Origin: Clostridiales bacterium
GTDB taxonomy: Bacteria; Bacillota; Clostridia; Lachnospirales; Lachnospiraceae
Length of the DNA stretch: 64,000 bases
Direction of reading: 5' to 3'
NCBI GenBank assembly: GCA_021204025.1
Contig: JAJQAC010000033.1
Location: forward strand, 1-64,000
A program made the translations under genes and the position numbers. Below the pieces are notes generated by a model that did not search any database, was not told where the DNA came from, and saw only the letters and a list, made by a program, of their open reading frames with translations. Within the stretch, counting starts at the first letter, position 1. Every line of letters begins with the position of its first letter. This document shows, in pieces, positions 9,542-61,818 of the stretch.

Positions 9542-11131
9542 TCAGTTCCATCCAAACAGCTCGTAACGAGTATTGCCTCCCGCGTTCAGATTGAAGCCTG
9601 TGATATCAGAATTATATGCGCGCATATTGTTGGTCATATACAGCGGAACCTGCGGGCAGTTTTCATTCAGAGCCTTACTGAGTTCTTCAAGCACTGCCAC
9701 GTTTTCTTCCGGATCAACCGTAGCCTTCGCCTTTTCGATCAGAGCGTCAATCTCCGGATCGTTGGTACGGGTCTTGTTAGAAGCGCCGATCGAACTGGAA
9801 TGATATACGCCCTGTACGTACTGCAGCAGGGTATTTGCCGTGTATCCACCAATTGCCGCATCATAATCACCTTCCGCGGTCTTATCAAGGTAGGTAGCCA
9901 GATCCATGGACTCCAGCTCGATATCGATACCAAGGTTTTCCTTTAAGCAGCTCTGTACCACCTGACCGGCACGCAGCTTTCTGTCATCGGAGCAGATCAG
10001 CTTAAAGCCACAGTTTGCCGGATCTAATCCAGAAGCAGCCAGATACTCCTTCGCCTTTTCCACATCATAAGTCGGAGCACCCTCATCCGTAGTACCAGGG
10101 AAGGTTGTAGGAGTCATCGAATCACAGGAGCTGCCGCCGCCGTTTAACGCAACCTGCACAATCGCATCCTTATCGATTGCGGAAGCAATCGCTCTGCGGA
10201 AATCGATATTGTCGAACGGAGCTCTCTCATTATTGATCATCATCCAGCTCTGAGAAGTACTCTCCGCATTATATACGGTTACGCCATCTGTCTCAGCAAG
10301 ACGGCTCATATCCGCGGTCTCAACCTCAACGATCAGATCAACCTCACCGGCTTCCAGAGCCATCGTCCGGGATGCGCCCTCCGGAATGATCTTCCAGGTT
10401 ACTTTCTTAATCTCCGGCTCGCCCTTAAAGTAATCCGCATACGCTTCAAATTCGAGACTCTCGCCCTTATTCCATGCCGTCATAATATAAGGACCGGTAC
10501 CAATGGGTTCCTTGTTAAAATCATGACCGCTCTCAATCAGATCTGCCGGAAGAATGGCATTGCCGTGATGAGTCAGTGCTGCGAGCAGTCCGGAATCCGG
10601 GCCATCTGTGATGATCTTAACCGTGTAGTCATCAACAACCTCTACTTCTCCTGCCGCATACTGGGAAACCTGTGGAGACTCTGTGCAAAGATCCAGAGAA
10701 GCCTTAACGTCCTTTGCGGTCATTTCTTCTCCGTTATGGAACTTCACGCCCTCTTTCAGATGGATAATCCACTCGGTATCGCTGGCAATCTCATAACTGT
10801 CAGCCAGATCCTCTTTTACTTCCTGATTCTCATCCATGTAGAACAGGCAGTTATAAGTCATCTTATTGATATAATCGCCGGCTACCGCATTATGAAGATT
10901 GGATGTAACACTCGGAGTTTCATTTGCCGTAGCAATGATAAGTGTGTCCTTTCCGCTGGAGCCACCCTCCGTAGAAGCAGCCGTATCACCGCTTGCAGCC
11001 GCCTGGGTTGTCGTTGTTCCGGAAGAAGAGCCACCTGAGGAAGAGGAAGATCCGGAACCGCAGCCTGCCAGCAGACCGGCAGCCAGTGAAAGAGCTAAAA
11101 CCGGCGCCAGAAGCCTAAAACTTTTTTTCAT
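9542..11131 (-). CDS. dppA: Peptide-binding lipoprotein of the Dpp-type importer (SBP family 5)
   Basis: This 529-residue extracellular solute-binding protein starts MKKSFRLLAPVLALSLAAG and has a lipobox LLAGC, so it is lipid-anchored outside the membrane. A Ser/Gly/Thr-rich linker follows. The mature part is of SBP family 5 (DppA/OppA), with conserved features such as VKFHNGEEMTAKDV and DFRRAIASAID. An upstream in-frame ATG (11170) would add 13 residues, but GGAGAT lies correctly before ATG 11131. It is first in the operon, with a good promoter at 11307-11335 and a ~170-base leader. Confidence 0.93.
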   Translation of the reverse strand: MKKSFRLLAPVLALSLAAGLLAGCGSGSSSSSGGSSSGTTTTQAAASGDTAASTEGGSSGKDTLIIATANETPSVTSNLHNAVAGDYINKMTYNCLFYMDENQEVKEDLADSYEIASDTEWIIHLKEGVKFHNGEEMTAKDVKASLDLCTESPQVSQYAAGEVEVVDDYTVKIITDGPDSGLLAALTHHGNAILPADLIESGHDFNKEPIGTGPYIMTAWNKGESLEFEAYADYFKGEPEIKKVTWKIIPEGASRTMALEAGEVDLIVEVETADMSRLAETDGVTVYNAESTSQSWMMINNERAPFDNIDFRRAIASAIDKDAIVQVALNGGGSSCDSMTPTTFPGTTDEGAPTYDVEKAKEYLAASGLDPANCGFKLICSDDRKLRAGQVVQSCLKENLGIDIELESMDLATYLDKTAEGDYDAAIGGYTANTLLQYVQGVYHSSSIGASNKTRTNDPEIDALIEKAKATVDPEENVAVLEELSKALNENCPQVPLYMTNNMRAYNSDITGFNLNAGGNTRYELFGWN

Positions 11132-32043: not shown

Positions 32044-33594
32044 TTACATCCATTTTTCCAACTTGTCAATATGATTTAATTCAAAAGTTTCTCCAATCTG
32101 CCCATTAACGGAAACATCATGTAAAACCAGCGTCTTAATATTATCTGCATAGATACCTTTCTTGCAGCAGAGATCCATTCCCTCCATCATCGCCGGGTAT
32201 CCCGCCTCAGCCTGATCGGCAAAATAGATATGAACGTTATCCATCATCACTCTCCGGATCTTCATCTCAGGCAGTCCGTACATATATGCTCCCGCTACAT
32301 GGCAGTTCGTCGCCTCAATATTCATAAAGCTCAGTTCCTTGATCTCCGGTGTACGCTCATCAACAGGAAGTCTCTCTTTAGATGAGACATATTCGGAGTA
32401 TCCGTCCGGATCGCAATTGTAAAAGCAGTTAATGACAAACGGAGTCTTCACCTCATCCATAAGAATATTTTCAAAATGAATCCGGTCGATCACAGCATCC
32501 TGTCCCCGACCTCTGCGCGACTTGATCCGCAGTCCGCGGTCCGTGTTCAGGAAACGGCAGTTTTTCACCACTACGTCCTTAATACCACCTGCCATCTCAC
32601 TGCCCAACGTGATGGAACCATGGCCATCTCTCATGCAGCACTGATGGATCACAATCTTCTGACAGGGCACTTTATACTTACGTCCCATATAAATCTTCCC
32701 GGACTTGATCGCGATGCAGTCATCGCCAAGCGAGAAATAGACGCCGACGATGTCCACATCCCGGCAGGACTCCGGATCCAGGCCATCGGTATTCGGGGAA
32801 TTGGCCGGATTGAGGATCTGCATATCGACAAACCGCAGCCTCTCAGAAAAATATGGATGAACGTTCCAGCTCGGACTATTCTGCACCGTAATTCCCTGTA
32901 CCACAATATCTTTGCACCGGTTCAGGAAAATCATGCGGGGCCGCCATGCGATCCGCATCTTTTTCGCATCATACCACCAGTTATCCGGATCCGCGGAGGC
33001 ATTCCCGTCGATCGTTCCCTCTCCGTATATCACCACGTGGCGACATTCAACGCCGGTAATGATGCCGGTAAACATCGGGAGCGGATTGCCCTCCCAGGAA
33101 CCAAGATTGTACTCCTTTTTCTCATCATAGCTCTGGATCATCCCCGGGAAAACCGGGAATTGTGTCCGATCCGTGATCCCTGACAGGACCGCACCCTTCG
33201 CGATCTCCAGACGCAGATCATCTTTCAGGAAAATACTGGTAACCTTGTACTCTCCCTCCGGGATCAGCACACGGCTGTCCTTCGGACACGCCATGATCGC
33301 TGCCTGAATGTAAGCTGTATCATTCTGCACGCCGTCTCCTTTGGCTCCGAAGTCGCGGACATTCAGTGTAATAAATTCTGGATCCGTCTCCACAAAGGTT
33401 TCGACCTCACCGATACGAATCGTATACTCGCTGGCCGGTTTCAGATTGTAGATACTAGTAATTACCTTTTCCGTCATTCCATACAAACTGTCATTCACAT
33501 AAATCTCATATTCCCGGTTCGTATGATAAATTCCTCCGTCCCGTATCTCAACGGTCACACTTCTCGCGGTCTTAAAGACAACTTTAACCTGCAT
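32044..33594 (-). CDS. GH28 polygalacturonase/exo-polygalacturonosidase
   Basis: This 516-residue protein lacks a signal peptide, so it is probably cytoplasmic and acts on imported oligogalacturonides. An N-terminal fibronectin III-like segment (~1-75) precedes the GH28 beta-helix, which opens with LNVRDFGAKGDGVQNDT. The catalytic motifs are all present: PNTDGLDPES, GDDCIAIKSG, GHGSITLGSE and RGLRIKSRRGRG. It should hydrolyse alpha-1,4-galacturonic linkages (exo-acting forms often have this N-terminal domain). Its likely promoter lies beyond the 144-bp family C palindrome, so the palindrome would be in its 5' leader. Confidence 0.92.
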   Translation of the reverse strand: MQVKVVFKTARSVTVEIRDGGIYHTNREYEIYVNDSLYGMTEKVITSIYNLKPASEYTIRIGEVETFVETDPEFITLNVRDFGAKGDGVQNDTAYIQAAIMACPKDSRVLIPEGEYKVTSIFLKDDLRLEIAKGAVLSGITDRTQFPVFPGMIQSYDEKKEYNLGSWEGNPLPMFTGIITGVECRHVVIYGEGTIDGNASADPDNWWYDAKKMRIAWRPRMIFLNRCKDIVVQGITVQNSPSWNVHPYFSERLRFVDMQILNPANSPNTDGLDPESCRDVDIVGVYFSLGDDCIAIKSGKIYMGRKYKVPCQKIVIHQCCMRDGHGSITLGSEMAGGIKDVVVKNCRFLNTDRGLRIKSRRGRGQDAVIDRIHFENILMDEVKTPFVINCFYNCDPDGYSEYVSSKERLPVDERTPEIKELSFMNIEATNCHVAGAYMYGLPEMKIRRVMMDNVHIYFADQAEAGYPAMMEGMDLCCKKGIYADNIKTLVLHDVSVNGQIGETFELNHIDKLEKWM

Positions 33595-33629
33595 GAATGG
33601 TCCCCCTTTTCGTCATATGCGAAGAGTCC

Positions 33630-33773
33630 GTCTCTGCGGGGGAAGAATATCCTCCGAGGACCGTTCGCACTTAGGTTTTCACGTAACGGTGCTAAGTTCG
33701 CCGGAAAAACATCCGGCTCACTAAGAACCGACGTGAAAAATGTCCTCTGCGGATATTCTTCCCCCGCAGAGAC
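33630..33773 (+). repeat. Family C structured repeat, copy C1 (144 bp)
   Basis: The outer arms at 33630-33652 and 33751-33773 are perfect 23-bp complements. Inside, TTTTCACGT pairs with ACGTGAAAA, and GCCGG/CCGGC closes a loop AAAAACAT. C2 at 39128 has the same length and plan with compensated changes. Flank GACTACTTTGTTGGC is also shared. It is non-coding. Confidence 0.8.
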
Positions 33774-33786
33774 TACTTTGTTGGCA

Positions 33787-33814
33787 TATATAATCGACTT
33801 ATCAGCAATGGTAA
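33787..33814 (-). promoter_or_regulatory. Candidate promoter for GH28
   Basis: Minus-strand TTACCA (33809-33814) and TATATA (33787-33792) are 16 bases apart. If used, copy C1 would be transcribed as the GH28 leader. Confidence 0.35.
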
Positions 33815-33860
33815 TTCTAATGAAATTCCCATTAAAATTTCCTACTTTTGCCTGTGAAAA

Positions 33861-33890
33861 AAGAGGGCTTCGTTTCACAGAAGCCCTCTT
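33861..33890 (-). terminator. Terminator of the pectin-locus ABC importer operon
   Basis: AAGAGGGCTTC and GAAGCCCTCTT form an 11-bp perfect stem with loop TGTGAAAC (minus), followed by TTTTTTCAC. It lies 40 bases after the permease stop. Confidence 0.88.
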
Positions 33891-33930
33891 CTCTGCTCTT
33901 ATCTTAATAACAATACAAGCATACCGGGCA

Positions 33931-34782
33931 TCAGCCTTTGACACCGCCGGCTGCGATACCTTCTACGAACGAATCCTGAGATGCAAAGAATACGATCAGA
34001 GAAGGAATGATGGAAATCAGTGACATCGCCAGAACTCGGTTCCACTGGAAACCAACATCACCGTCCATGGACATACGCAGGTAAATGGAGTTCGTATATT
34101 TCGTCATCGTAGAAATATAGATCAACGGTCCCTGGAAGTCGTTAGACGTCCACATGAACTGGAACAGTGCGCAGGAAACCAGCGACGGCTTCAGCATCGG
34201 AACGATGACATACCAGAGCGTCTGGATCGCATTACATCCATCAATCTTTGCTGCTTCCTCAAGCTCTCTCGGAATACCGCGCAGGAACTGGTTCAGCATG
34301 AATACAAAATATGTATCACAGGCAAACAGTGACGGAATTACCAACGGTAAATAGCTGTCGACCCATCCCCACTTGTTGAACATGATGTACTGCGGCGCAT
34401 TCAATACTACCTGCGGCAGGAACAGCGTACACATCAACAGAGCGAAGAAAATATTTTTTCCCTTGAAATTAAATCTTGCAAAACCATAAGCCGTGATCGT
34501 CGCGGAAACCAGAGTAAAGATAACCTTCGGGATAACGATCTTATAAGTATTGATCATGGACTTGATCAGGTCGATCTTGCCGCCGTAGCTCTTAAACGCA
34601 TCATTATAACCGTCAAATACCGGATTCTTCGGCCAGAACCACGCGCTGGTGAAGATCTCAGAGTTGGTCTTAAAAGTAGCGCCTACCATCCAGATCAGAG
34701 GATAGACCATGATAATCCCGACCAGGATCAGAACAATATAACGCAATACGGTACTGATTTGATTTTTCTGTTCTCTTGTCAT
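33931..34782 (-). CDS. Carbohydrate ABC transporter permease (MalG/LplC-like)
   Basis: This 283-residue inner-membrane permease of the CUT1 family has about six helices. The first is IVLILVGIIMVYPLIWMVGA. The EAA loop is EELEEAAKIDGCNAIQTLWYVIVP, seen here as ELEEAAKIDG. It pairs with the permease encoded 6 bp upstream and the lipoprotein at 36242. No ATPase gene is in the operon, so a shared MsmK-type ATPase elsewhere is expected. Substrate is probably oligogalacturonide or a similar pectin fragment, judged by GH28 and GH105. Confidence 0.93.
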   Translation of the reverse strand: MTREQKNQISTVLRYIVLILVGIIMVYPLIWMVGATFKTNSEIFTSAWFWPKNPVFDGYNDAFKSYGGKIDLIKSMINTYKIVIPKVIFTLVSATITAYGFARFNFKGKNIFFALLMCTLFLPQVVLNAPQYIMFNKWGWVDSYLPLVIPSLFACDTYFVFMLNQFLRGIPRELEEAAKIDGCNAIQTLWYVIVPMLKPSLVSCALFQFMWTSNDFQGPLIYISTMTKYTNSIYLRMSMDGDVGFQWNRVLAMSLISIIPSLIVFFASQDSFVEGIAAGGVKG

Positions 34783-34788
34783 GTCCGA

Positions 34789-35688
34789 TTACCTCCCATC
34801 TTCATCCGAATAGTAAACCCATCTGTTCTGGCTGATAAATGCGACTGCGGTCATAACAGCGGTAATAATGAACAGAACCCACGCCTGCGCACTCGCCATA
34901 CCCATCTTATGACGAAGGAAAGCGTTGTTATAGATCAACAGGGAGATCAAGGTCGTAGCGCCGTTCGGTCCGCCCTTGGTTACCAGGAACGGTCCGTTGA
35001 ATTCCTGGAATGCCTGGCAAAGCTGTGTAACCAGATTGTAGAAAATGATCGGTGTGATCAGTGGTACGGTAATCTGGAAAAACTGGGTCCATTTGGTCGC
35101 GCCATCGATGGAAGCCGCCTCATAAAGGTCAACCGATACGCCTTTCAAAGCGGCCAGGAAAATAACCATTGATGAACCAAACTGCCATACACGCAGCAAT
35201 ACGATTACAAACAATGCGCCATTTGCCGTAGCCATCCAGTTAATATTCGGAACTCCAAACATACCGAGTACGGTATTTACCAGACCTTCGGTATTCCAGA
35301 CTGCTCTCCACAGAATCGCGATTGCGATAGAGCCACCGAGAATCGACGGAATATAGTAAGCGGTACGGAACAGGTTCACGCCCTTCAGTTTGAAATTCAG
35401 AATGTAGGCGATAAACAACGCAAATACCAGCTTTAACGGTACGTCAAAAATCGCATACTTAAAAGTTACCAGGAAAGCCCGGACAATATCCTCGTCCGTA
35501 AAAATCTTCTGATAGTTCATAAGACCCGTCTGAGAGATACCGGAGAACAGATCATAGTTCGTGAAGCTGTAATACAGCGATGACGCAAACGGATATACCT
35601 TAAACAGTAAAAATCCGATCAGCCACGGAATTATGAAGAAAAAGCCAACGTTCTCACTCAGGGTCTTTTTAAAACTCTTTTCCTGCAT
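34789..35688 (-). CDS. Carbohydrate ABC transporter permease (MalF/UgpA-like)
   Basis: This 299-residue CUT1 permease begins with a helix at ~14-35 (FFFIIPWLIGFLLFKVYPF) and carries the EAA-loop motif YEAASIDGATKWTQFFQITVP. It forms the heterodimeric channel with the next gene. A 112-residue unknown gene lies 19 bp upstream. Operon order is lipoprotein, unknown, MalF-like, MalG-like. Confidence 0.93.
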   Translation of the reverse strand: MQEKSFKKTLSENVGFFFIIPWLIGFLLFKVYPFASSLYYSFTNYDLFSGISQTGLMNYQKIFTDEDIVRAFLVTFKYAIFDVPLKLVFALFIAYILNFKLKGVNLFRTAYYIPSILGGSIAIAILWRAVWNTEGLVNTVLGMFGVPNINWMATANGALFVIVLLRVWQFGSSMVIFLAALKGVSVDLYEAASIDGATKWTQFFQITVPLITPIIFYNLVTQLCQAFQEFNGPFLVTKGGPNGATTLISLLIYNNAFLRHKMGMASAQAWVLFIITAVMTAVAFISQNRWVYYSDEDGR

Positions 35689-35707
35689 GTGTGTTTCCCC
35701 TCCTGTT

Positions 35708-36046
35708 TTATTTGTTTAATTCACCGAGCAGTTCCTCATACCGTTCCGGCAGGACGGCCCTTAACTCACACGCCCTCGAAACCACATAAGCCAGCTGCTC
35801 CCTCATCGAATCCTCCGGGAATGCTTCCCTGCACCCCTTTTCCCGGCAGATCCGTCTGATTCGCTGCAAGTGATTTTTCAGCATATCGCACAGCGCGCGG
35901 TAATGCTCATAAATCTGATCTGACATCTCGCTGATCGTATCCACCAGCAACACAAGCTGTTCCGGATCCGGATCCTTCACGGCCGAAAACCACCTTACAA
36001 TATCAGCATAATTTGCCTGATCTTTCACAGCTTCTTTAATGTCCAT
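35708..36046 (-). CDS. Small conserved-looking protein of unknown function in the sugar ABC operon
   Basis: This 112-residue soluble, mostly helical, charged protein starts MDIKEAVKDQANYADIVRW. GGAGAGGG precedes ATG 36046; an ATG five codons earlier (36061) lacks room for that site. No membrane segment, signal peptide or recognised domain is seen. It contains a few Cys and many Arg/Glu/Leu, compatible with a helical bundle. It is tightly packed (19 bp) ahead of the permease genes and behind repeat A2, so it is probably co-expressed with the importer. I do not recognise its family. Confidence 0.65.
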   Translation of the reverse strand: MDIKEAVKDQANYADIVRWFSAVKDPDPEQLVLLVDTISEMSDQIYEHYRALCDMLKNHLQRIRRICREKGCREAFPEDSMREQLAYVVSRACELRAVLPERYEELLGELNK

Positions 36047-36073
36047 AAGATCCCTCTCCAAACGAATTCATCT

Positions 36074-36165
36074 GTGATCGAGTAGGAGGCAGCTTTTTGC
36101 CTCATACTCGCTGCGCGAGCCGGGTGCGGCGTCAGCCGCAAAATACCCTGCCCGGCTCTGCGCAT
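36074..36165 (+). repeat. Family A repeat, copy A2
   Basis: It reads GTGATCGAGTAGGAGGCAGC at one end and CTCTGCGCAT at the other. Stems are GAGTA/TACTC with GAGGC/GCCTC, TGCGGC/GCCGCA and outer GAGCCGGG/CCCGGCTC. It directly follows the SBP terminator on the minus strand. Confidence 0.75.
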
Positions 36166-36170
36166 TTAAC

Positions 36171-36201
36171 GGAAGCCGCCAGACTTACTTCGGCGGCTTC
36201 C
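36171..36201 (-). terminator. Hairpin after the SBP gene
   Basis: GGAAGCCGCC and GGCGGCTTCC form a perfect 10-bp stem with an 11-base loop. The following T-tract is weak (GTTAAAT), so partial read-through into the permease genes is likely. Confidence 0.6.
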
Positions 36202-36241
36202 TGTCACCTGTCAAAACAAGTTTTTCTCAAACAAATCCTTC

Positions 36242-37609
36242 TTAGTTGCCAAGGCACTCATTGATACCGTCAACCAGAGCTTCCGCCGCTTTCGCGCTGT
36301 CATAATCGCCGCTGCTCAGCTTGCCGAATACCTTGTAGTAAACGCCGTCCGGATTTGCCTTCAGATCGTTATGCTCAAACTTCTCATCCAGCTGGAACGG
36401 GTTGTTTGCGATTGCCTGTGCGTTTGCTTCCTTAACCAGCTCGTCGCCCAGCCCCTTCTCATTCAGAACCGCTACTGCAGCCTCCGAACACGGAATACCA
36501 CGCTCAGTAGACAAGATCTCAGCACCTTCCGGATCATTCAGCATATAGTTGATCAGCATCGCTGCTTCCTTCGGATGCGCGCAGTTCTTGGTGATCGCAA
36601 ATGCCATGGAGATCTTGGTAAAGCCGCCCTTGTAATCGCCAAACTCAAGGTCATCGCCGATGACAAATTCCTGATTCGGCTTGTTGGTGGACTCTACGAT
36701 TGCCTGCTGGAACTTGGTAGCGGAAGAATCCCACTCAAGGATACCTGCGTACTTACCATCGATCCACTTTGCGTTCTTATCGATGGAGTCAGCCATATCA
36801 CCGCTCAGAACCGCGATCGTCGGCATTACATGCTCTTCTTCCAGCTTGCAGACGAAATCCAGACCTTCCTGGATCTCTTCTACTGAATACTGGAGCTGAT
36901 TGTCTTCTACCCATGCTTTGTTGTACTTAGACTCCAGATAATGTACCAGGAAGATCGCACGGTCATACTCGCCCATCGCCAGCGGATAATAGCTGTCGTC
37001 ATAAGCCTTGAACGCTGCGCCTGCCGCCAGCAGGGAATCCTCATCCGTCGGAAGAGCTGCGCCCACCTCATCAAACGTGGTCTTATTCCAGTAGAACAGA
37101 CGTCCGGTCAGAGAAATCGGAACCGCCACCTGCTTGCCGCCCGCTACACATGCATCGAGAGAAGACTGCGGGAACTGAGTCAGATCCAGAACATCCGAAT
37201 AATCGTTCAGATCCAGGAAGTTCTCGCCGTTGTTGGAATAGGACTCAATCCAGTTCCAGTTGATCTGCATCACATCCGCCGCGCTGCCGCCAAGGATATT
37301 CATAGACTGAGCTTCCTCCCAGCCGTTCCATGCGCCGTACTCAGCCTCAATGGTGATATACGGATACTTCTCCTCAAACTTTGCAATCGCTGCCTCAGTT
37401 GCCTCATGTCTGGAGTCGCCGCCCCACCATGAGAAACGCAGGCTTACCGGCTCCTCAGCGCCCGCCTCGGTCTCCGCCGGAGCTGCCGCGCCGCCTGAGC
37501 TCGAACCACTGTCACTGCTGCTACTGCTGCTGCCGCCGCATGCTGCCAAGGACAGCACCATTACAGACGCCAGCGATAATGAAATTGCTTTCGTAACGTT
37601 TTTCCTCAT
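36242..37609 (-). CDS. Sugar-binding lipoprotein of an ABC importer (SBP family 1)
   Basis: This 455-residue extracellular lipoprotein has signal MRKNVTKAISLSLASVMVL and lipobox LSLAAC. A Ser/Gly linker (~25-45) follows, then a family 1 solute-binding fold (SLRFSWWGGDSRHEATEAAI near 60). It captures the sugar for the permeases at 34789 and 33931. The strong promoter at 37760-37788 gives a ~140-base leader that contains a palindromic operator. The hairpin and repeat A2 downstream may set its higher expression over the permeases. Confidence 0.93.
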   Translation of the reverse strand: MRKNVTKAISLSLASVMVLSLAACGGSSSSSSDSGSSSGGAAAPAETEAGAEEPVSLRFSWWGGDSRHEATEAAIAKFEEKYPYITIEAEYGAWNGWEEAQSMNILGGSAADVMQINWNWIESYSNNGENFLDLNDYSDVLDLTQFPQSSLDACVAGGKQVAVPISLTGRLFYWNKTTFDEVGAALPTDEDSLLAAGAAFKAYDDSYYPLAMGEYDRAIFLVHYLESKYNKAWVEDNQLQYSVEEIQEGLDFVCKLEEEHVMPTIAVLSGDMADSIDKNAKWIDGKYAGILEWDSSATKFQQAIVESTNKPNQEFVIGDDLEFGDYKGGFTKISMAFAITKNCAHPKEAAMLINYMLNDPEGAEILSTERGIPCSEAAVAVLNEKGLGDELVKEANAQAIANNPFQLDEKFEHNDLKANPDGVYYKVFGKLSSGDYDSAKAAEALVDGINECLGN

Positions 37610-37650
37610 AAATAAATTCTCCCTTTCTTATAAAATGGTCTGAATCCAGG

Positions 37651-37664
37651 TGCAAAGGTTTGCA
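37651..37664. promoter_or_regulatory. Palindromic LacI-type operator 1
   Basis: TGCAAAGGTTTGCA is a perfect inverted repeat apart from its centre. It lies in the SBP leader, about 90-100 bases after the predicted start. It matches operator 2 at 37877 in 12 of 14 positions. Confidence 0.6.
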
Positions 37665-37759
37665 TCTAAACTCAAAAATATTATGCAACTCTGCTACATT
37701 TCTTGTCCCCTTAGCAGTATCTCATGAAGCATTATTGCACGTACTTTGTAGATATTTTT

Positions 37760-37788
37760 ATAATAACACCTTTGCCCAGTGATGTCAA
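37760..37788 (-). promoter_or_regulatory. Sigma-A promoter of the sugar ABC operon
   Basis: Minus-strand TTGACA (37783-37788, consensus) and TATTAT (37760-37765) are 17 bases apart. The predicted start is near 37753. Confidence 0.75.
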
Positions 37789-37856
37789 TTAGTGATTTTG
37801 CTCAGTTTGAGATTTTTTAATTTGTTACATTTGGCTAATTCTTTTCTGCCAATTTT

Positions 37857-37866
37857 GTGCTATTAT
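37857..37866 (+). promoter_or_regulatory. Extended -10 promoter of GH105
   Basis: TGTGCTATTAT supplies an extended -10 (TGC then TATTAT at 37861-37866). No good -35 is seen. The start would be near 37873, just before operator 2. Confidence 0.5.
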
Positions 37867-37876
37867 TTCAATAGGG

Positions 37877-37890
37877 TGCAAACGTTTGAA
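37877..37890. promoter_or_regulatory. Palindromic LacI-type operator 2
   Basis: TGCAAACGTTTGAA is centred on AACGTT and lies at the predicted start of the GH105 transcript, a position where a bound repressor would block transcription. Confidence 0.65.
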
Positions 37891-37938
37891 ATTAAAATGA
37901 CACAGTTGGTATTTTTCAGAAAAAAGGAGAAGATGTTT

Positions 37939-39072
37939 ATGCAGATTTTAGACCGCTATATCGAGCAGCTACTGGAAAAGAGCAGCCCGCAGATGCCCAT
38001 ATGGAATATTGAGAAGATCAAAGCCGGTGCCGAGCCCTCGTGGAACTATATGGACGGCTTCATGATCCATGCGATCCTTGAGCTGTATCATATGACGAAA
38101 AAGGAAGAGTATCTTACCTTTGCCGACAATTTTATTGATTATTTTGTCAATGACGACGGCTCCATCCAGTCCTATGATCCCTATGAGTATAATCTCGACA
38201 ATGTCAACGCCGGCAAGACTCTTTTTGATCTCTATGAACTGACCGGCAAAGAGAAATACCGCCGTGCCATCGACACCGTATACAGTCAGCTGAAAGGCCA
38301 GCCGCGTACTTCGACCGGCAATTTCTGGCACAAGCTGATCTACCCGAACCAGATCTGGCTGGACGGCACCTATATGGCACAGCCTTTCTATATGCAGTAT
38401 GAGGTTACGTTTAACGACTGCGCCAACTGTCTAGACAGCTATAATCAGTTTCTGAATGTCTATAACCTCATGCGGGATACCCGGAACGGTCTCTATTATC
38501 ACGCTTATGATGATTCCAGACAGATGTTCTGGTGTGACAAGGTAACCGGTCTCTCGGATAATTTCTGGCTGCGCGCGCTGGGCTGGTACGCGATGGCTCT
38601 GATCGATACGATGGATGTCATGCCGGATGATAAACTCGGCAAGGAAAAGAAGGAACTGAACCGCATCTACAAAGAACTCATTGACGCCATGATCCCCTAT
38701 CAGGATGAGGAGTACGGCATGTGGTATCAGGTCGTCAACCGCGGCGGTATCAAGCCGAACTACCTGGAAACTTCCGGCTCCGCGATCTTCGCTTACGCGA
38801 TCATGCGCAGTGTGAGAATGGGTTATCTGGATGAGTCTTATTATCAATATGGAAGAAAAGCGTTTGACGGCATCTGCCGCAAGTACCTGTCGGAAAAAGA
38901 TGGCGAGTTACAGCTCGACGGTATCTGTCTGGTAGCTGGACTCGGCAATAAGCAGATGAGAGAGGGAACCTTTGAATATTATATGAGGGAACCGATCGTC
39001 CAGAACGAGGCGAAGGGTGTTGCTCCGCTGATTCAGGCGTATATTGAGATTATGCACCGCGGAGAGAACTGA
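37939..39072 (+). CDS. GH105 unsaturated rhamnogalacturonyl/galacturonyl hydrolase
   Basis: This ~377-residue cytoplasmic (alpha/alpha)6-barrel enzyme has GH88/GH105 features. These include WNYMDGFMIHAILELY, the catalytic-Asp segment WLDGTYMAQPFY, RALGWYAMALIDTMD and ETSGSAIFAYAIMR. It removes the unsaturated uronic acid left on pectin fragments by lyases. The open frame runs back to 37792, but those codons are promoter and operator. AGGAG fits ATG 37939 (nine bases) better than ATG 37933 (three). It is divergent from the ABC operon and shares its operator motif. Confidence 0.92.
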   Translation: MQILDRYIEQLLEKSSPQMPIWNIEKIKAGAEPSWNYMDGFMIHAILELYHMTKKEEYLTFADNFIDYFVNDDGSIQSYDPYEYNLDNVNAGKTLFDLYELTGKEKYRRAIDTVYSQLKGQPRTSTGNFWHKLIYPNQIWLDGTYMAQPFYMQYEVTFNDCANCLDSYNQFLNVYNLMRDTRNGLYYHAYDDSRQMFWCDKVTGLSDNFWLRALGWYAMALIDTMDVMPDDKLGKEKKELNRIYKELIDAMIPYQDEEYGMWYQVVNRGGIKPNYLETSGSAIFAYAIMRSVRMGYLDESYYQYGRKAFDGICRKYLSEKDGELQLDGICLVAGLGNKQMREGTFEYYMREPIVQNEAKGVAPLIQAYIEIMHRGEN

Positions 39073-39127
39073 TTGGAGATAAGATACTTATAGATATTAT
39101 TAAATATTATTTATTGGCGGGCGGTCC

Positions 39128-39271
39128 GTCCCTGAGAAGAAAACATATCCTCCGAGGACCGCTCGCGCTTAGGTTTTCACGTAGCGGTACTAAACTCACC
39201 GGAAAAACATCCGGTTCGTTAAGTGCCGACGCGAAAAATGTCCTCTGCGGATATGTTTTCTTCTCAGGGAC
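39128..39271 (+). repeat. Family C structured repeat, copy C2 (144 bp)
   Basis: Arms 39128-39150 and 39249-39271 are perfect 23-bp complements. Length equals C1. The inner 98 positions differ from C1 at about 13, mostly transitions, and ACCGG/CCGGT replaces GCCGG/CCGGC. It lies downstream of GH105. Confidence 0.8.
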
Positions 39272-39360
39272 TACTTAATTGGCGAATTTTTAACTTAATT
39301 CTTCAAATGTTTTGCCAATTATTAATAATACATCATATTTTATTATCAGAATTTTTCTTA

Positions 39361-39390
39361 AAGCCCCCGATGCAATATCATCGAGGGCTT
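39361..39390. terminator. Bidirectional terminator between GH105 and MATE genes
   Basis: AAGCCCCCGATG and CATCGAGGGCTT pair with one mismatch. ATTTTATG follows on the plus strand and TAAGAAAAATTC on the minus strand. It ends 22 bases from the MATE stop. Confidence 0.7.
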
Positions 39391-39411
39391 ATTTTATGCA
39401 CACTTTCCATT

Positions 39412-40794
39412 TCAAATCCCCGCCGTGCGTCTCCACACGCCACTCCGGTACTGGAGGACGAAGCAGATGCTGCGCGCAATCCAGTCTATAACCATTGCAA
39501 TCCATACGCCGATAGCTCCCATCCCCAGACGCACGCCAATCACATAACTCAATAACACCCGGAACAGGATCATGGAAGAGATTGACACTATCATCGGATA
39601 CCGCACGTCGTTCGACGCTCTCAGCACGTTGCTCAGTGTAAAGGAAAGCGGCCACAGCAGGATCGCGCATCCATCATGGATCGTCACCAGAACCGCTGCC
39701 AGCGACAGCGCTTCCTGTGAAAGTGCGTACAGCCGCATCGTAAGCGGCATCGTCGCGATGATCAGCACACAACAGCCGCCAAGCAGCACATATGTGATCT
39801 TTAACATCTTTTTCGCATAGTATCTCACCTGATCGTAATCACCCGCTCCGACGCACTGGCCGATCACGGTGATCATTGCCAGGTTCATCGCCTGGCCGGG
39901 CAGGATCCCCATGCCGTCCAGATTGTTCGCGACCGCATTTGCCGCAATCTGCACAGTGCCAAATGTCGCGATAATGCTGACTACCAGCACACGCCCCAGC
40001 TGAAAGATACTGTTTTCAATACCGCCGGGGATGCCGATATGTAAGATCCGACGGATCATCCCGCCGTTCCAGCTAAACGGCTCATCACCGATATGGATCG
40101 GCAGGCTGCGGTCGGTCAACCGGAAACATAAAATCAGACATGCAGTCATGCGGGAAATCAACGAGGCCAGAGCAGCTCCTGCTACTCCCCACTTCATGAC
40201 AAAGATAAAAAACGCGTTTCCGCACGCATTCATCAGATTCATCAGTATCGAAACTTTCATCGAGATTTTGGAATTTTCCATCGACCGGAAAAGCGCCGCG
40301 CAGGAATTATACACGGCAAGGAATGGGTAGGACAACGCGGAAAGCCAGAAATAGACCAGCGCATTTCTCATTACATCCTCTTCCACCCCGTGGTACAGGA
40401 GTTCCAGAATCCCTCTACGGAAGATGATGGTAAGCGCCGCGATGCCGACCGAGATCAGCCCTGTGACCAGCAGCAGCTGCTGCGCCGACTCACAGCTTTT
40501 CTTTTCATCTTTATGACCCAGATACTGAGATGCCACGACTGCGCCGCCGGTTGATACCGCGGCGAAAACATTGATCATCAGATTATTGATCATATCGACC
40601 AGTGATACTCCGGACGTCGCTGCTTCCCCGGCGCTCGATACCATCATAGTATCCACCATGCCTACCGTGATCGCCAGCACCTGCTCCACGATCAACGGCG
40701 CGATCAGTACCGCGAGCGCTCGATTGGAAAACATCCGATTGTCCTTCCGTTCATCCGAAAACAACGCCGAAAGCTGAAATCCCTGTCCTTTCAT
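39412..40794 (-). CDS. MATE family multidrug/cation antiporter
   Basis: This 460-residue membrane protein has about 12 helices in two MatE halves. The first half opens with LIAPLIVEQVLAITVGMVDT and contains VSQYLGHKDEKKS, the second contains IGQCVGAGDYDQ, the usual repeat-related motifs. It exports organic cations or drugs using a Na+ or H+ gradient. Cargo is not predictable. It is monocistronic between a terminator and the RpiR gene's terminator. Confidence 0.93.
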   Translation of the reverse strand: MKGQGFQLSALFSDERKDNRMFSNRALAVLIAPLIVEQVLAITVGMVDTMMVSSAGEAATSGVSLVDMINNLMINVFAAVSTGGAVVASQYLGHKDEKKSCESAQQLLLVTGLISVGIAALTIIFRRGILELLYHGVEEDVMRNALVYFWLSALSYPFLAVYNSCAALFRSMENSKISMKVSILMNLMNACGNAFFIFVMKWGVAGAALASLISRMTACLILCFRLTDRSLPIHIGDEPFSWNGGMIRRILHIGIPGGIENSIFQLGRVLVVSIIATFGTVQIAANAVANNLDGMGILPGQAMNLAMITVIGQCVGAGDYDQVRYYAKKMLKITYVLLGGCCVLIIATMPLTMRLYALSQEALSLAAVLVTIHDGCAILLWPLSFTLSNVLRASNDVRYPMIVSISSMILFRVLLSYVIGVRLGMGAIGVWIAMVIDWIARSICFVLQYRSGVWRRTAGI

Positions 40795-61634: not shown

Positions 61635-61730
61635 ACTGCTCTCCTCCTTATATATTGTATCATAAATTTTTGACTGACCGGTTCCCGGTGTGGCTAATGA
61701 ATCGACAACTATGTTATTGGTGAAGCGCCC

Positions 61731-61763
61731 GTCCCTGAGAGGAAAACATATCCTCTCAGGGAC
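61731..61763 (+). repeat. Short family C element, copy C3
   Basis: GTCCCTGAGAGGA and TCCTCTCAGGGAC are perfect 13-bp arms around AAACATA, followed by TACTTTTTT. It equals the outer part of C2 with the ~110-bp interior removed, and shares the flank GACTACTTT. Confidence 0.7.
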
Positions 61764-61818
61764 TACTTTTTTAGCGTGCACTCCTGTCGATAAAAGTGGC
61801 TCCAGCTCTATAACATTT

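Follow-up and report, generated by a model that had tools for sequence, protein, structure and literature searches.

The closest described counterparts of the element reported here are the REP sequences. The GTAG and CGTC super-families of REPs are simple palindromes of 20-40 bp (Di Nocera et al. 2013, PMC3733652), which the main text of that paper places in dispersed intergenic positions, mostly past the 3' ends of genes and in co-directional or convergent settings, partly as opposite-orientation dimers; that main text contains no match for 'Firmicutes' or 'Clostridi'. A second relevant case is that of RNA hairpins maintained by template switching, a mutation mechanism that rewrites the two sides of a stem together; for RNA genes it was deduced from reconstructed ancestors (Monttinen and Loytynoja 2022, PMC8794818). 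We analysed a window of 64,000 nt (the whole stretch of contig JAJQAC010000033.1 under study) from a Lachnospiraceae genome, G000 below, that contains two complete copies, C1 and C2, of an intergenic hairpin element. The element shares with REPs, as described in PMC3733652, the dispersed intergenic distribution and gene settings, the opposite-orientation dimers, GTAG- and CGTC-like junctions in this genome, and core-deleted relics near REP size. Unlike the REPs of that description, it is 144-200 nt long, has a branched RNA core with a GNRA loop, combines the two motifs in a single copy, with part of each lying in the stem, and lacks a RAYT, a lack that it has in common with the CGTC REPs (PMC3733652). 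Where PMC8794818 treats RNA genes, the present element provides about 100 dispersed copies, orthologous pairs among them.

Rechecking the sequence reproduced the initial annotation of the two copies (Table 1). Each is 144 nt long with a perfect outer stem (P1) of 23 bp; the arms of C1 and C2 differ at left-arm positions 4, 8, 10, 11, 13, 16 and 17, all seven changes being matched on the opposite arm, and 13 further differences, 12 of which are transitions, lie in the inner 98 nt. Folding of either strand gave -79 to -91 kcal/mol (z -11.4 to -13.3), and none of 200 shuffles was as low. The minus-strand fold was the more stable one for both C1 (-89.8 versus -85.7 kcal/mol) and C2 (-82.7 versus -79.3 kcal/mol). 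This predicted minus-strand structure leads from a long P1 of free sequence through a 3x3 internal loop, which keeps P1 and P2 apart in C1, to P2, a GNRA-capped P3 and an apical arm that holds a conserved core. The plus-strand consensus of the core is ACGTAGCGGTACTAAG ... CTAAGTGCCGACGT, from which C1 departs slightly. At the junctions of foot and stem in G000, one strand has GTAG and the opposite one CGTC. The final G of GTAG is already the first stem base, as in C1, where the foot ends with GTA on the minus strand and the following G opens the stem, and CGTC overlaps the stem; elsewhere the foot motif is degenerate, often (T/C)AG, and it is missing from distant copies. Coding use of the region is not supported, as none of the three open reading frames (110-166 aa) that cross C1 or C2 matched a Pfam family.

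Table 1. Features of the hairpin element within the 64,000-nt window
Feature	Position	Strand	Remark
Segment missing from the orthologous spacer of G006	33611..33831		221 nt, C1 and flanks
C1, complete short-form element	33630..33773	-	RNA features on the minus strand
C1 P1 left arm	33630..33652		pairs with 33751-33773; 23-bp perfect inverted repeat
C1 P1 right arm	33751..33773		pairs with 33630..33652
C1 P2 left arm GAGGAC	33656..33661		pairs with 33742-33747
C1 P3 mini-hairpin	33663..33670	-	GU-GCGA-AC on the minus strand, a GNRA tetraloop
C1 apical arm P4 to P7 and conserved core	33676..33739	-	
C1 conserved foot TACTTTGTTGGCA	33774..33786		
C2, complete short-form element	39128..39271	-	RNA features on the minus strand
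C2 P1 left arm	39128..39150		pairs with 39249-39271
C2 P1 right arm	39249..39271		pairs with 39128..39150
C2 P3 mini-hairpin	39161..39168	-	GC-GCGA-GC on the minus strand, a GNRA tetraloop
C2 conserved foot TACTTAATTGGCG	39272..39284		
Third copy in the window, core-deleted relic	61726..61768		both feet and a bare P1 hairpin left

Further copies, on which the initial annotation had staked its interpretation, were found both in the same genome and across the family. G000 holds at least 63 complete dispersed copies (43 short and 20 long, C1 and C2 included); the element was detected in 18 of 60 relatives, this genome not counted, and in 99 of 299 Lachnospiraceae genomes with this genome included, and in none of the 24 genomes from other families of the order. 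Complete copies cover 147-198 nt of the model, feet included, and core-deleted relics about 43-61 nt, so that only the relics come near the size of a REP. Like the families in Rfam 15, the element would be a structured RNA, yet it matched none of them above the family cut-off: permissive E-values gave no match for window positions 33000-40000, and nine matches with E up to 1 at seven other loci, all far below the cut-off, were to miRNA, sRNA and one Plasmodium RNase P model. We found no published title or abstract naming this hairpin family in a search that was thin on subscription journals. In viral_contigs, phage carriage was sought by exact pattern matching and rejected with 0 matches.

The copies are mainly intergenic and lie more often in the sense direction and downstream of a gene. 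Of 109 full copies, 100 have genes on the two sides according to our own ORF caller. In this set, which takes in orthologous copies from both species, 62 lie between co-directional genes (47 sense and 15 antisense in the RNA frame), 28 between convergent and 10 between divergent genes; 90 of 100 thus share the uni- or convergently transcribed setting of REPs. No recurrent neighbouring gene pointed to a function, the largest ORF cluster occurring at 8 of 80 loci and, in 19 low-copy genomes, at 4 of 20 loci. By eye, the ORF cluster at the 8 loci looks like an ABC ATPase. C2 lies 140 nt past the 3' end of a MatE gene at 39412-40794(-), in the same sense. Insertion behind terminators, at which C1 and C2 hinted, is not general, since by our own heuristic only 13 of 102 copies have a sense terminator upstream.

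The presence of the element varies between species, copy by copy. The nearest relative, G006, lacks 221 nt in its orthologous spacer, which marks C1 as a recent insertion, and the orthologous spacers of G011, G002 and G020 likewise have no element at this site. C2 is common to G006, with its orthologue at C22:35549-35702. The pectin segment that the two copies were said to bracket is therefore meaningless as a unit, C1 being a recent arrival and C2 older. Among the other empty sites, site A is the only near-exact one and has no target duplication; sites B, C and K are partial deletions, and D, H, I and J are ragged. In G023, hairpin pairs occur in a unit estimated at about 490 bp (9 of 10 fetched loci aligned, L134 left out) with inverted, TIR-like ends ATACCTTRTCGTGCRG, reminiscent of a MITE. 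Unlike MITEs, the outer sequences vary between species, and neither TIR nor duplication is established for C1 or C2.

Judged from the alignments, the minus strand of the element probably specifies a structured RNA. Read at fixed model columns, 91 of 96 distinct copies have a GNRA tetraloop on that strand, and 93 of 96 have one when a 3-bp stem was allowed and the GNRA option was taken wherever several mini-hairpins were possible; the plus strand gave none. These counts exclude 5 of 101 rows without the mini-hairpin, four of which match the opposite strand of a copy and one of which is a fragment. The P3 loops are of six types, closed by GC/GC (70), GT/AC (19), AC/GT (4), CC/GG (2) or AT/AT (1). 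Across the family, covariation scored 0.750 against 0.171 for shuffles in a shuffle test other than R-scape, in keeping with the selection on folding proposed initially. Paired cells made up 94.2% against 60.5% in shuffles and at most 42.4% in slid versions, in an alignment fitted to the model's own structure. Further pair types (159) were not above shuffles (164.2). Wobble asymmetry was weak (G.U 56 versus A.C 37 in the minus frame, p 0.06), and in 42 copies one core pair is T.G when read on the plus strand, so that the presumed RNA strand has C.A there. The minus-strand tetraloop and the family-wide covariation support selection on an RNA.

How the outer stem keeps its pairing was examined in 12 orthologous stems from two species, three of them assigned by one flank. 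These come from 17 orthology rows, with 43/33 and 51/38 (unparsed), 21/40 (arms unreadable), 60/40 (a run of N) and 48/38 (loci repeated elsewhere) left out. Of 252 pairs, 200 were the same, 43 had changed on both sides, 8 on one side, and 1 on both sides without pairing. If selection on RNA structure were the sole agent, arm copying would play no part, and a second, separate mutation would have restored pairing after each stem change. In favour of this, the GNRA loops and the covariation are genuine RNA features, and 8 pairs have changed on one side only. Against it, 20 of the 43 double changes are transversion-type (23 are transition-type) and hence have no G.U intermediate, which favours arm-to-arm copying over stepwise compensation, and neither strand has a clear surplus of G.U among its mispairs. 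The mispair tally omitted 3 of 109 full copies for register or missing anchors, many of its 14 C/T counts arise in stems shorter by one base, in which a foot base faces pair 23, and it shares a few G006 copies with the wobble count. The mix of transitions and transversions differs between stems and flanks only at p 0.09. The 52 of 252 changed pairs also exceed the flank divergence of 9.7% per site (10.4% at 20-80 nt from the element), but this rate argument is weak because the flanks were compared in alignable stretches only and bound neutral change merely from below. The compensated changes in the outer stem thus look more like arm-to-arm copying, and we regard purely stepwise compensation as rather unlikely. 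The inner part tells a different history. The P3 loop base is C in 59 of 61 copies versus T in 42 of 44, and differs at 14 of 14 orthologous sites, four of which (11/31, 21/40, 40/5 and 48/37) rest on one flank; the long and short forms are switched at 6 of the 14. Apical divergence is 0.158 at orthologues and 0.169 in random cross-genome pairs (p 0.26), whereas P1 arm divergence is 0.187 at orthologues versus 0.286 in random pairs (p 0.0002). By this comparison the cores are homogenised within a genome and P1 retains locus identity, and homogenisation is incomplete, as P2-P6 are slightly locus-specific (p 0.007). Parallel adaptation of the loop to an altered partner, in place of gene conversion, would fit the fact that both loop forms are GNRA and function was kept through the change. 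We consider it very improbable, as the same substitution would have had to arise independently about 60 times within a single lineage, and as the long/short form also switches and the apical part is scrambled among loci. Structure selection and arm copying were originally posed as alternatives; each seems to be at work, but in its own part of the element.

The hairpin could instead be the DNA substrate of a Y1 (HUH) transposase, conserved for that enzyme and not as RNA, in a REP/RAYT or IS200/IS605-type single-stranded DNA transposon. The junctions in this genome resemble the tags of the two REP super-families (PMC3733652), although partly in the stem here, the pairs in opposite orientation resemble REP dimers, and the near-exact empty site lacks a duplication. 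Y1 presence does not track the element in 16 genomes, so a Y1 transposase was rejected as mobiliser: the carriers G034 and G025 gave no Y1 domain, and G009, G013 and G018 have one but yielded no copy of the element. The two Y1 genes of G000 look broken and are on contigs without a copy among those listed, and a RAYT (Y1) gene of the element's own, bordered by its copies, was not found. Moreover, a GNRA loop has by definition a purine at its third base, and only 3 of 96 loops are non-GNRA; DNA hairpins are not known to require a purine there. We hold this DNA-based explanation to be rather unlikely. A non-autonomous IS200/IS605 element with an omega RNA was rejected for want of its TnpB partner, since neither of the copy-rich genomes G000 and G006 gave a TnpB zinc-ribbon match. 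A retron or group II intron derivative was also rejected, as reverse transcriptase neither tracks nor adjoins the element: RVT_1 had no match in the carriers G020 and G034, and its single match in G000 is on a contig without a copy among those listed. A SINE-like selfish RNA, whose GNRA transcript would be needed for RNA-templated or RNA-guided insertion by a putative enzyme, whose active form would overwrite the cores at old sites and whose P1 would drift by arm copying, seems improbable to us. Finally, C1 might be an ordinary cis-regulatory leader or terminator, namely an attenuator of the GH28 gene (assigned by Pfam). The start codon of GH28 follows 35 nt downstream of C1 in the same sense, and the initial placement of C1 in the GH28 5' leader would fit in position and strand. 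An attenuator is nevertheless highly unlikely, since no neighbouring gene is recurrent among the copies, C1 is missing from the orthologous GH28 leaders examined, and the RNA strand of C1 and C2 has no U-run after P1.

The reading that we favour, with a probability of roughly 0.6 and from sequence comparison, is that of a dispersed REP-like element, non-autonomous and Lachnospiraceae-wide, that would encode a structured RNA, undergo arm copying in P1 and experience conversion in the core. In this REP-like element, pairing of P1 would be kept mainly by template switching during replication at the palindrome, with one arm copied onto the other, and the apical part may be exchanged by ectopic gene conversion, perhaps begun by breakage at the hairpin tip. 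The folded RNA, located in mRNA 3' ends or between cistrons, would be the target of selection as well as of a putative mobiliser, and the element would work like REP/BIME elements. It represents an apparently uncatalogued structured-RNA family in about one third of the sampled genomes of the Lachnospiraceae, a major gut and rumen group. Its dispersed copies are bacterial repeats evolving in concert, chiefly in the core. With dozens of copies, some orthologous in two species, the family provides a natural test of one-event arm copying against stepwise compensation, a question that bears on the reading of covariation as proof of selection.

The initial annotation described two intergenic hairpins, C1 and C2, both of 144 nt with 23-bp perfect outer stems, and this description holds. 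Their stems differ at seven positions, each changed on both arms, and 12 of the 13 differences in the inner part are transitions. The folding energies of C1 and C2 are far below those of shuffled sequences on either strand, and the minus strand gives the more stable fold in both. Three ORFs of 110-166 amino acids cross C1 or C2, with no match to a Pfam family.

C1 and C2 belong to a dispersed repeat family (the element). In a whole-genome DNA search of the window's own genome, G000 (40 of 89 candidates scored), the first 40 listed matches were copies or copy parts of at least 110 nt. A covariance model built from 32 copies (150 of 1116 candidates scored) found at least 43 complete copies of the short form (147-156 nt) and at least 20 of the long form (191-198 nt) in G000, plus fragments, these counts being lower bounds tallied from the match list. 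The long form is the short form with an additional hairpin within the apical arm. In the long copies of G000 (L093-L112), this hairpin of about 43 nt has TAC/TAAG direct repeats at its ends and has been added or removed at fixed sites, in at least one case (orthologous site pair 21/40) without change in the remaining core. Under strict filters, the model matched 19 of 61 genomes, G000 included, and 6 of 38 genera, with no match in the 24 genomes outside Lachnospiraceae. In a wider draw within the family, with scoring limited to 10 candidates from each genome, 99 of 299 genomes, again including G000, carried the element. A pattern scan of named genomes gave at least 104 stretches; among the matches listed, the titles were mainly Lachnospiraceae (Butyrivibrio, Oribacterium sinus, Coprococcus comes and Dorea among them), and some carried the labels Eubacteriaceae, Clostridiaceae or Clostridiales.

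The element looks like an RNA encoded on the minus strand. Among the 96 distinct copies of a cross-species set of 112 matches from 81 loci, 91 carry a minus-strand GNRA tetraloop on the mini-hairpin P3 when read at fixed model columns, and 93 do so when a 3-bp stem is allowed (GAGA 52, GAAA 15, GCAA 13, GGGA 8, GCGA 4 and GGAA 1; the non-GNRA loops are GCGC 2 and AAAA 1), while none of the same 96 copies has a GNRA loop of P3 on the plus strand. Covarying pairs close this loop, and the conserved core reads ACGUCGGYACUUA ... CUUAGUACCGCUACGU on the RNA strand. Co-directional gene spacers hold 47 copies in sense and 15 in antisense orientation, convergent spacers 28 and divergent spacers 10. Wobble asymmetry (56 vs 37, p = 0.06), suggestive at most, and one core pair that is T.G on the plus strand in 42 copies count against the minus-strand reading. 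Two-sided changes were seen at all 23 pairs of the outer stem P1; paired cells amounted to 94.2% overall, compared with 60.5% in shuffles and at most 42.4% in slid registers, and the covariation score was 0.750 against 0.171 for shuffles, in an alignment that was fitted to the model structure and thus leans toward it. Further pair types (159) were no more numerous than in shuffles (164.2).

To follow the stems at fixed loci, orthologous copies in G000 and its nearest relative, G006, were paired up through their flanks. Over 12 orthologous stems of 21 pairs each, 200 pairs are unchanged, 43 changed on both sides and are still Watson-Crick, 8 changed on one side and 1 changed on both sides without pairing. 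Changed pairs thus make up 20.6% (52/252), next to a divergence of 9.7% (497/5145 bases) in the flanks of the same loci and 10.4% (101/967) at 20-80 nt from the element, flank values that cover alignable stretches only, so that neutral divergence is at least this high; change in the stems is at least not visibly slower. Replication template switching predicts double changes, few intermediates and many transversion-type changes, and the pattern in the orthologous stems fits, with 20 of the 43 double changes being of transversion type against 162 of the 497 flank substitutions (p = 0.09). The same argument is made for RNA genes in PMC8794818. Template switching may be the source of the two-sided stem changes.

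The cores evolve in concert. On the plus strand, 59 of 61 G000 copies have C as the second P3 loop base and 42 of 44 G006 copies have T, with a difference at all 14 orthologous sites; since two copies read in another relative, G020, have T, the change probably happened in the window's lineage. Orthologous sites are no closer in the apical part (divergence 0.158) than random cross-genome copies are (0.169, p = 0.26), the P1 arms retain locus identity (0.187 vs 0.286, p = 0.0002), and P2-P6 falls in between (0.066 vs 0.080, p = 0.007). At 6 of the 14 sites, one genome has the long form and the other the short. We suggest that ectopic gene conversion, with its centre at the tip of the hairpin, lies behind the concerted cores. 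SbcCD cleaves hairpins, and if a copy cut in this way were repaired from another one, the apical-to-P1 gradient in locus identity would result.

The presence of copies also varies between genomes. C1 is absent from the orthologous G006 spacer, where the window aligns on both sides and 221 nt are missing, and the orthologous spacers of G011, G002 and G020 are without the element; C2 is present in G006. One G006 site is near-exactly empty and contains the CGTCCG foot (feet are conserved flanks beyond P1), and other differences include palindrome deletions with one arm or the feet left. In G023, nine aligned loci (L133 and L135-L142) each have two different hairpins with their RNA 5' ends facing. 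The surrounding unit measures about 490 bp and has the inverted ends ATACCTTRTCGTGCRG, of which both are kept in some but not all of the nine; L136 has two such hairpin pairs in a row. None of the mobiliser enzymes searched tracks the element, the neighbour genes of copies show no wide recurrence, and the exact element pattern was not found in viral contigs. Two Y1 transposase genes in G000 look broken, and no convincing copy is listed on either contig.

Other repeats were also seen. The GTCTCTGC stem subfamily (G000 L001, L003, L005, L009, L014 and others) is often inside a third palindromic repeat (AACTTATCGGAAGTT..., CTGACGCAAC...), seen in the outer flanks, so the element rides in differing outer sequences. 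A second dispersed palindromic repeat, GC-rich, consists of GAGTAGGAGGC..GCCTCATACTCGC and then a GCGAGCCGGG..CCCGGCTC hairpin; it has three matches in G006 (91-96%), and its region in the window, 36065-36185, has a fold z of -5.6.

Coordinates of the hairpin elements, core-deleted relics and neighbouring features
Feature	Locus	Sequence	Position
Hairpin element	C1	window	33630-33773
Hairpin element	C2	window	39128-39271
Core-deleted relic		window	61726-61768
Core-deleted relic	L125	G000 C83	22284-22344
Core-deleted relic	L126	G000 C51	74969-75029
Core-deleted relic	L127	G000 C66	60600-60646
Second repeat		window	36071-36179
Second repeat	L312		around 1425-1521 and 10111-10274
Y1 transposase gene		G000 C55	11863-12224
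Y1 transposase gene		G000 C14	23927-24255

Compared with REPs, short dispersed bacterial palindromes, as characterized in PMC3733652, the element is alike in position, dimers and junction motifs but differs in its size, its branched GNRA core and the absence of a RAYT, the Y1 transposase tied to REPs, which places it outside the REP class. The core-deleted relics, including the one in the window, have both feet left, with a bare P1 hairpin between them, and are close to REP size; their likely breakpoints look like short direct repeats, e.g. CCTC. From the sequence comparisons, we conclude that this widespread element family appears to be a new structured-RNA type among REP-like mobile repeats and that it may have a role at mRNA 3' ends.
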